Assembly: GCA_002698995.1 (NCBI GenBank)
Contig: PAAX01000011.1
Coordinates: 1-64,000 of the forward strand
DNA length: 64,000 bases
Source: Ignavibacteriota bacterium
GTDB taxonomy: Bacteria; Bacteroidota; Ignavibacteria; Ignavibacteriales; Melioribacteraceae
Direction: 5' to 3'
The first letter of the stretch is position 1. The number at the start of each line of letters is the position of its first letter. Both the position numbers and the translations under genes were made by a program. Under the pieces are notes generated by a model, which made no database searches, was not told the origin of the DNA, and saw only the letters and a list, made by a program, of their open reading frames with translations. Shown one piece after another: positions 9,681 through 10,668 of the stretch.

Positions 9681-9766
9681 GCCGAAGTGGCGAAATTGGT
9701 AGACGCGCTGGACTCAAAATCCAGTCGGGGTTAAACCCGGTGCCGGTTCGAGTCCGGCCTTCGGTA
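9681..9766 (+). tRNA. tRNA-Leu (CAA)
   Basis: A class II tRNA of 86 bases. The acceptor strands GCCGAAG (9681-9687) and CTTCGGT (9759-9765) pair with a closing G-U, and discriminator A is at 9766. The anticodon stem CTGGA/TCCAG encloses loop CTCAAAA, giving anticodon CAA, which reads UUG. A long variable arm (about 9726-9740) and a T arm GCCGG-TTCGAGT-CCGGC at 9742-9758 are present. The CCA end is not encoded. Two copies of its 3' half occur downstream, each after a GIY-YIG ORF. Confidence 0.97.
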
Positions 9767-9786
9767 CAAAAAAAATCATAACTACG

Positions 9787-10032
9787 TTGTTCACTGTTTA
9801 CGCTATAAAAAGTATTTCCCATAAATTTATCTATGTCGGGATGACCACTAACCTTGATGAAAGACTTTATCAGCATAATTCAGGTTTTAATAAATCCACA
9901 AAACCTTATAAACCTTTTAGACTCATTTATACTGAAGAATTTGAATCTTCTATTAAAGCTAGAATTCGTGAAAAACAATTAAAAACTGGTAAGGTAAAGA
10001 AATTTTTGTACTCTTTAATTGAACAAGAATAA
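9787..10032 (+). CDS. Small GIY-YIG nuclease-domain protein, copy 1
   Basis: An 81-residue protein made only of a GIY-YIG fold: VYAI near the start, FIYVGMT as the YIG strand, the Arg of DERL, and REKQLK with the likely metal-binding Glu. These are the catalytic positions known from UvrC and I-TevI. The codon matching the ATG of copy 2 is ACG here (9784-9786), so translation would need the next codon, TTG at 9787. There is no Shine-Dalgarno sequence in the 20 bases after the tRNA, so expression is doubtful. The stop TAA (10030-10032) lies in sequence matching the tRNA variable arm. It may be a decaying homing-type nuclease. It is not a UvrC fragment, since no other UvrC domain is present. Confidence 0.75.
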   Translation: MFTVYAIKSISHKFIYVGMTTNLDERLYQHNSGFNKSTKPYKPFRLIYTEEFESSIKARIREKQLKTGKVKKFLYSLIEQE

Positions 10033-10082
10033 ATCCGGTGCCGGCCTACTGCGTAGGTAAATTCGAGTCCGGCCTTCGGTAC
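10030..10082 (+). pseudogene. Displaced tRNA-Leu 3' half, copy 1
   Basis: 10030-10044 matches the tRNA variable arm and 5' T-stem (9732-9746) with one mismatch. 10062-10082 matches the T-loop through the 3' acceptor strand (9747-9767) exactly. Between them lie 17 inserted bases. There is no 5' half, so it cannot fold as a tRNA. Confidence 0.9.
10045..10061 (+). repeat. Single 17-base palindromic unit in the T arm
   Basis: CCTAC-TGC-GTAGG plus TAAA, inserted exactly between the T-stem GCCGG and the T-loop TTCGAGT of the displaced tRNA fragment. The 5-bp palindrome can form a small hairpin on top of the T stem. Confidence 0.9.
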
Positions 10083-10192
10083 TTTTCAATTTACAATTCA
10101 GAATTTATAATTTACAATTGCTTCTTCAAGTTAGATTTGTTAATTAGTCCAATTATTTTTTTGATATCGAATTATTTTTCACAGGTTTTTCA

Positions 10193-10441
10193 ATGTTGTT
10201 CACTGTTTACGCTATAAAAAGTATTTCCCATAAATTTATCTATGTCGGGATGACCACTGACCTTAATGAAAGACTTCATCAACATAATTTCAGTTTTAAT
10301 AAATCCACAAAACCATTTAAACCTTTTAGACTCATTTATACTGAAGAATTTGAATCTTCTATTAAAGCTAGAATTCGTGAAAAACAATTAAAAACTGGTG
10401 TGGGAAAAGATTTTTTGTATTCGTTGATTGAAGAAGGTTAA
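10193..10441 (+). CDS. Small GIY-YIG nuclease-domain protein, copy 2
   Basis: An 82-residue GIY-YIG-only protein, about nine-tenths identical to copy 1. Differences cluster at the C-terminus and in the YQHNSG/HQHNFS region. VYAI, FIYVGMT, NERL and REKQLK are intact, so catalytic competence is plausible. It starts at ATG with a modest ACAGG upstream, making it the better candidate for a working gene. The stop TAA at 10439-10441 lies inside an exact 18-base match (10436-10453) to the tRNA variable arm and T-stem, so the ORF is joined to tRNA sequence at its last codons. Free-standing GIY-YIG proteins are known as homing-type or repair nucleases. Its target here, possibly the tRNA-Leu gene, is my inference. 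Confidence 0.8.
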   Translation: MLFTVYAIKSISHKFIYVGMTTDLNERLHQHNFSFNKSTKPFKPFRLIYTEEFESSIKARIREKQLKTGVGKDFLYSLIEEG

Positions 10442-10525
10442 ACCCGGTGCCGGCCTACTGCGTAGGTAAACCTACTTCATAGGTAGACCTACTCCGTAGG
10501 TAGATTCGAGTCCGGCCTTCGGTAC
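10436..10525 (+). pseudogene. Displaced tRNA-Leu 3' half, copy 2
   Basis: 10436-10453 is identical to tRNA positions 9729-9746, and 10505-10525 is identical to 9747-9767. A 51-base insert separates them at the T-stem/T-loop junction. The acceptor 3' strand and T-loop are conserved, but there is no 5' half. Confidence 0.9.
10454..10504 (+). repeat. Three tandem 17-base palindromic units
   Basis: Units at 10454-10470, 10471-10487 and 10488-10504. Each is CCTAC, three variable bases (TGC, TTC, TCC), GTAGG or ATAGG, then TAAA or TAGA. The first equals the single unit in copy 1. The array sits exactly between GCCGG and TTCGAGT of the tRNA-derived T arm. Confidence 0.92.
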
Positions 10526-10668
10526 TTTTCAACTTTCAATTTACAATTCAGAATTTATAATTTACAATTGCTTCTTCAAGTTAGATTTTAAACTCACCCA
10601 ATAATTTTATATGAAATTAACTTATCTTGCAAAAAGTATTTTTCAATTTTAGAATTGGTAAAATTATT

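Follow-up and report, generated by a model that had tools for sequence, protein, structure and literature searches.

Introduction

Mobile open reading frames (ORFs) that replace the ends of the genes they enter have been described in fungal mitochondria, at atp6 in Allomyces and at atp6, atp9, cox2, and nad3 in Glomus (PMC3630166). The hosts are mitochondrial protein genes, the endonucleases are of the LAGLIDADG or GIY-YIG type, and the replacements as described concern 3' ends only (PMC3630166). Among phages, SegB of T4 and T6 is a free-standing GIY-YIG homing endonuclease encoded among tRNA genes (PMC2988022, PMC13096335); in the passages of these accounts consulted it is a phage gene that targets a tRNA intergenic region and drives tandem amplification of a tRNA-nuclease segment (PMC13096335), with no spare tRNA half or rebuilt tRNA described there.

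Here we analyze a 64,000-nucleotide stretch of an Ignavibacteriota genome (hereafter the window), together with related loci, in which small GIY-YIG ORFs adjoin halved tRNA genes, an arrangement for which the fungal mitochondrial mobile ORFs and phage SegB are the closest precedents. The likeness to the fungal systems lies in an endonuclease ORF within an essential gene, an incoming end that gives a hybrid gene, and a native end left beyond the ORF (PMC3630166); in contrast to them, the hosts are bacterial tRNA genes rather than mitochondrial protein genes, both 5' and 3' versions occur, the nuclease has 80 amino acids, and there are tandem arrays and hairpins in the spare halves. With SegB, which we compared by its description, neither a close sequence relation nor a phage location was found, as a phage collection returned distant matches alone (34-37% identity, mainly Rhizobium phages). 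Partial tRNA repeats around an insert and a tRNA that stays whole are also features of integrase-driven elements at tRNA 3' ends, from which the cassettes differ in the absence of a tyrosine or serine recombinase gene from the units, in the use of 5' halves too, and in a unit size of about 0.3-0.45 kb. No description of such a tRNA-ORF-half arrangement in bacteria was found in the open-access literature searched, and the finding, which is real and general, is apparently undescribed in bacteria within that literature.

Organization of the window locus

The window holds a single tRNA gene as predicted by ARAGORN and Rfam, an intact tRNA-Leu(CAA), which is followed by two units that each combine a GIY-YIG ORF with a tRNA-Leu 3' half (Table 1). 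ARAGORN, Rfam, Pfam, and alignment thereby confirm the arrangement reported in a preliminary description of the same DNA, as well as its claim that the units encode a GIY-YIG nuclease as their only protein, no integrase being found between the parts in the window. The 3' halves that it reported are likewise real, with zero to one mismatch to the intact gene and, for the unit 1 piece, a z of 14-22 against shuffles in a script alignment, but they are not contiguous, as the T-arm is split by palindromes that the description had overlooked. The break lies in both halves just 5' of the T-loop TTCGA and is made by one or three copies of CCTACTNCGTAGGTARA, a palindrome present four times in the window against 0.02 expected and in further exact copies elsewhere in the source genome. 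The stop codon of each ORF falls within its tRNA piece, and the two ORFs are 88% identical to each other. That the cassette had stacked up twice holds as far as the presence of two units goes, with repeated invasion and local unequal recombination both possible as their origin.

Table 1. Features of the tRNA-Leu(CAA) locus in the window
Feature	Position	Strand	Evidence or remark
tRNA-Leu(CAA), intact, invaded gene	9681..9767	+	ARAGORN; Rfam RF00005, 60.5 bits
Unit 1 GIY-YIG ORF, 81 aa, TTG start	9787..10032	+	Pfam PF01541 E 2e-16; invariant family residues present
Unit 1 tRNA-Leu 3' half, nt 52-87, T-arm interrupted	10030..10082	+	One mismatch to intact tRNA
Palindrome CCTACTGCGTAGGTAAA in T-arm of unit 1 spare half	10045..10061	+	
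Unit 1 AT-rich tail, recurring after unit 2	10083..10138	+	Direct reading
Unit 2 GIY-YIG ORF, 82 aa, ATG start	10193..10441	+	Pfam E 1.3e-14; AlphaFold2 pLDDT 91
Unit 2 tRNA-Leu 3' half, nt 49-87	10436..10525	+	No mismatch to intact gene, insert aside
Three tandem palindromes in T-arm of unit 2 spare half	10454..10504	+	
Unit 2 AT-rich tail	10526..10588	+	Direct reading

Distribution of the ORF family and its tRNA neighbors

Twelve sites in the source genome match the ORF and six of them adjoin tRNAs (Leu twice, Cys, Met, Ser, and Arg), for which chance adjacency is negligible because the genome has 42 tRNAs in 4.2 Mb. Matches at an E-value of 1e-8 or better are present in 37 of 58 relatives, many of them as tandem arrays that repeat about every 315-450 bp. 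When 40 additional loci were taken from the relatives' match list in order of E-value, with tRNAs disregarded, a tRNA lay within 160 nt on the same strand in 34 and on the opposite strand in none, and 32 of the 40 carry a spare tRNA half. A GTDB scan, run with a Leu-type alignment as a first one was too diverse and hence biased to tRNA-Leu, yielded 80 named loci in Bacteroidota, Ignavibacteriota, Balneolota, and Patescibacteria, cultured strains among them, and in 71 of these loci a tRNA on the same strand lies within about 160 nt. Among the remaining nine, six were read in detail: L070, L062, L086, L096, and L120 keep tRNA pieces by the ORF, and L126 has a tRNA-like match. Across the loci examined, the same ORF family and a spare half are found beside ten tRNA isotypes; a search of other tRNA genes had been proposed in the preliminary description. 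Searches for a carrier gave no match in the plasmids searched and, in viral contigs, a single match at a contig end that identifies no carrier.

Several loci depart from the common arrangement. In L070 (2880-3360), L120 (2478-3348), and L086 (2900-3330), an uninterrupted tRNA-Leu 3' half lies 5' of the cassette and the tRNA body is absent; an integrase-like ORF is seen by eye close to the cassette of L070, and at loci of this type the tRNA that the cassette uses may also have been entered by integrase elements, on the 5' side of the cassette. In L325 (1045-1755), two predicted tRNA-Ser(GGA) genes and two GIY-YIG ORFs form an alternating array, the inner tRNA copy appearing nearly complete. In the source genome, the GIY-YIG ORF of L007 (1310-1990) apparently lies within a split ORF, with copies of the window palindrome on both sides; assigned by eye, the split ORF would encode a four-helix-bundle protein like those of 23S rRNA intervening sequences.

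Two layouts and the palindromes of the spare halves

Besides the tRNA-ORF-3' half order of the window (layout A), which the preliminary description had recognized correctly, there is a mirror layout that it had missed, in which a tRNA 5' half, the ORF, and the intact tRNA follow one another (layout B) and the ORF thus stands between the tRNA promoter region and the tRNA. Hairpins interrupt 86 of 100 spare halves and leave the intact tRNA uninterrupted; they occupy 38 of the 50 spare halves in layout A, mostly at nt 59-70 in the T-arm, and 48 of the 50 in layout B, mostly at nt 8, 15, and 23-24 in the D-arm. The 3.9 kb of spare halves contain 70 consensus palindromes, as opposed to 2 for the 6.4 kb of linkers and a single one for the 14.6 kb of outer flank. 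Furthermore, of the 39 halves that do not differ from the tRNA in any other way, 34 have a hairpin, which indicates that hairpins come with the insertion or very soon after it. At the tRNA-Cys locus L028, a decayed sequence that resembles tRNA-Cys and has several arms occupied by palindromes (1250-1360) lies 5' of the intact tRNA-Cys and is probably the scar of an older insertion.

Short palindromes dispersed over many sites are familiar from the Rickettsia palindromic elements. Comparable elements are the GC clusters of yeast mitochondria (PMC4478555), and the palindromes studied here are also dispersed elements in their own right in their genomes; unlike in such dispersed elements, however, the palindromes are more than 50-fold denser in spare tRNA halves than in linkers and flanks and sit in set arms. 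The set positions of the hairpins and the dispersal of such palindromes in the same genomes are what would be seen if the nuclease mobilized palindromes in the manner of REP-associated transposases, tRNA arms being merely preferred landing sites. We nevertheless consider this quite improbable, as the palindrome families differ among genomes, most of the dispersed copies read have no such ORF near them, and the nuclease tree tracks tRNA isotype (see below).

Empty sites and direction of replacement

The Flavobacteriaceae tRNA-Leu(CAA) adjoins a gene that we name, from its sequence, as ribose-phosphate pyrophosphokinase. In Flavobacterium, 1 of 81 genomes is filled, with two units and the local terminator repeated after each half, and 80 are empty; in Allomuricauda, 3 of 40 loci are filled, all in layout B, and filled L304 and empty L305 have nearly the whole 49-nt upstream flank in common; and in Polaribacter, 3 of the 28 loci that have the tRNA are filled. 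In three genera, the same site is thus filled in some close relatives and empty in others, as known for homing, and congeners carry the same tRNA with zero, one, or two units, in agreement with what the preliminary description had proposed to look for in relatives. For the window locus itself, flank-protein synteny revealed no relative with the same neighborhood and no close relative with an empty site among those compared.

The direction of the exchange can be read in Polaribacter L362, which occupies the same place as L058. Its outermost pieces are a 5' half that starts with GCTCGAG and a 3' half that ends with CTCGAGTAC; these outer halves (GCTCGAG and CTCGAG(T)) are mutually pairable and match native congeners, and from the outer 3' half into the flank 132 of 143 positions are identical to the empty congener L382, with a match score of 177, where no other exceeds 28. 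The inner, intact tRNA, in contrast, deviates in both its acceptor stem (GCCTCGA/TCGAGGT) and its terminator. Native outer halves around a non-native inner tRNA imply that the resident gene was split and that a working tRNA was provided; L362 compared with L382 is thus one clear case in which the native end is displaced and the incoming end functional. L362 combines a decayed layout-B unit with two layout-A units, which would explain the change of both acceptor strands.

At most other loci, the comparison has less resolving power: spare half and intact tRNA agree in the acceptor strand in 92 of 117 cases, so that rebuilding cannot be separated there from target duplication followed by gene conversion. 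An insertion of the ORF beside an untouched tRNA, with repair duplicating half the gene and no rebuilding, would account for the identity of spare half and local tRNA at most loci and for the local terminator in F. orientale, which is likewise repeated on both sides. It does not account for L362, where a non-native intact tRNA stands between native outer halves, the flank past the outer 3' half being native as well, and the tRNA-Cys case L028 likewise differs in the acceptor stem, a native half with a replaced tRNA being just as likely there as a foreign spare half. On these grounds, we regard duplication without rebuilding as unlikely.

Replacement of a tRNA gene is also seen where there is no GIY-YIG ORF. 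In two Allomuricauda loci and one Polaribacter locus, L286 (2015-2154), L299 (about 2000-2140), and L390 (about 2020-2163), a displaced native, palindrome-free tRNA-Leu 5' half lies just 5' of a different, complete tRNA-Leu, which has a GCCTCGG acceptor in all three and a similar terminator.

Fold, selection, and phylogeny of the nuclease

The encoded protein is little more than a catalytic domain and belongs to the GIY-YIG superfamily by its conserved-residue domain, its Pfam E-values, and its fold, with the catalytic residues Y6, G19, R27, H31, E63, and K67 invariant in 40 sequences. The solved folds nearest to the AlphaFold2 model of the unit 2 ORF are UPF0213 (1zg2) and Slx1, followed by the UvrC N-terminal domain and the I-TevI catalytic domain. 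The small UPF0213 (YhbQ-like) proteins are thus the nearest in fold and similar in size, but the sequence match to them is weak (phmmer E 0.021), and to our knowledge the description of that family mentions no tRNA association. A group I intron endonuclease was considered as well and rejected, as the match to the NCBIfam intron-endonuclease model is far under the cut-off and no intron family was found when the window and ten loci were scanned with Rfam.

The placement of the ORF next to a half tRNA on the same strand, and hairpins that could stabilize an RNA, would fit a tRNA-cutting RNase toxin whose antidote is the transcribed half tRNA. The fold, however, most resembles those of UPF0213 and of the DNA enzymes Slx1, UvrC, and I-TevI, and empty sites together with native outer halves are signs of DNA invasion, which leaves the toxin reading highly improbable.

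Purifying selection is evident in close pairs, with dN/dS mostly 0.04-0.3 once the saturated values of distant pairs are disregarded, and is weaker in the window ORF pair (dN/dS 0.53). On a tree of 72 proteins, from which the Leu-biased GTDB set was left out and in which many forks are weakly supported, tRNA isotype changes 13 times against a shuffled mean of 44.5, none of 200 shuffles being as low (three families). Leu, Cys, Met, Gly, Asp, and Ala each lie on one side of a tree branch and span different families, so that by this tree nuclease lineages are tied to one target across hosts, as is characteristic of homing. Layout, scored as two states, changes 14 times against a shuffled mean of 21.7, with switches often inside one clade; the side of entry is therefore not a fixed property of the nuclease, and a single fixed cut site is not evident.

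It is general knowledge that tRNA genes often duplicate and recombine, and a small gene could hitchhike by chance in tandem tRNA duplications. Against this stand the strand bias of 34 to 0, the tracking of isotype, the selection on the ORF, and its presence in Bacteroidota, Ignavibacteriota, Balneolota, and Patescibacteria, and we give chance hitchhiking practically no credence.

A proposed model for tRNA-gene homing

As read from the DNA, the loci present an insert at a tRNA gene, a tRNA half beyond the ORF, and a retained intact tRNA, and the core idea of the preliminary description, that a cassette invades a tRNA gene and a rebuilt tRNA results, held in all comparisons made. That the process is nuclease-driven, as it also claimed, we infer. 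Where spare half and intact tRNA are the same, as in most copies, the direction of origin is not readable. For a system that combines sporadic insertion, gene splitting, one replaced tRNA, a nuclease under selection, and isotype fidelity, we favor as the likely explanation a minimal homing-type mobile cassette that consists of a small GIY-YIG nuclease only and is faithful to the gene of one tRNA isotype. To judge from L362, such a cassette can split a resident tRNA gene and supply a working one, and it works like a gene-end-replacing homing element with putative cleavage and transfer steps.

In the mechanism that we propose, the nuclease would cut the tRNA gene and repair from cassette-bearing DNA would copy the ORF in, the tRNA sequence that flanks the ORF serving as homology. 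A palindrome in the spare half may then ruin its nuclease site or its tRNA fold and so stabilize the locus; as the intact tRNA keeps an uninterrupted site, self-cutting would have to be prevented. Tandem units could stem from renewed invasion or from recombination of the repeated halves with each other. With somewhat more reserve, we think it plausible on balance that the cassettes form a new and widespread class, in which sibling nucleases, each devoted to one isotype, would enter essential tRNA genes from either side and give a replacement half, a host palindrome in the discarded half stabilizing the result.

If this is correct, homing would occur here without an intron, an intein, or a tolerant intergenic site, and a nuclease of 80 residues would inhabit highly conserved essential genes by replacing half of them, which would place the cassettes among the smallest known self-propagating DNA units. 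Acceptor stems of tRNAs would move between species, so that tRNA genes would not be purely vertical in their inheritance, and the family would provide small, related nucleases that in nature are specific, between them, for about ten kinds of tRNA gene. The cassettes also raise the testable possibility that a nuclease is linked to dispersed palindromes, and they would account for many of the tiny GIY-YIG ORFs that adjoin tRNAs in Bacteroidota genomes.
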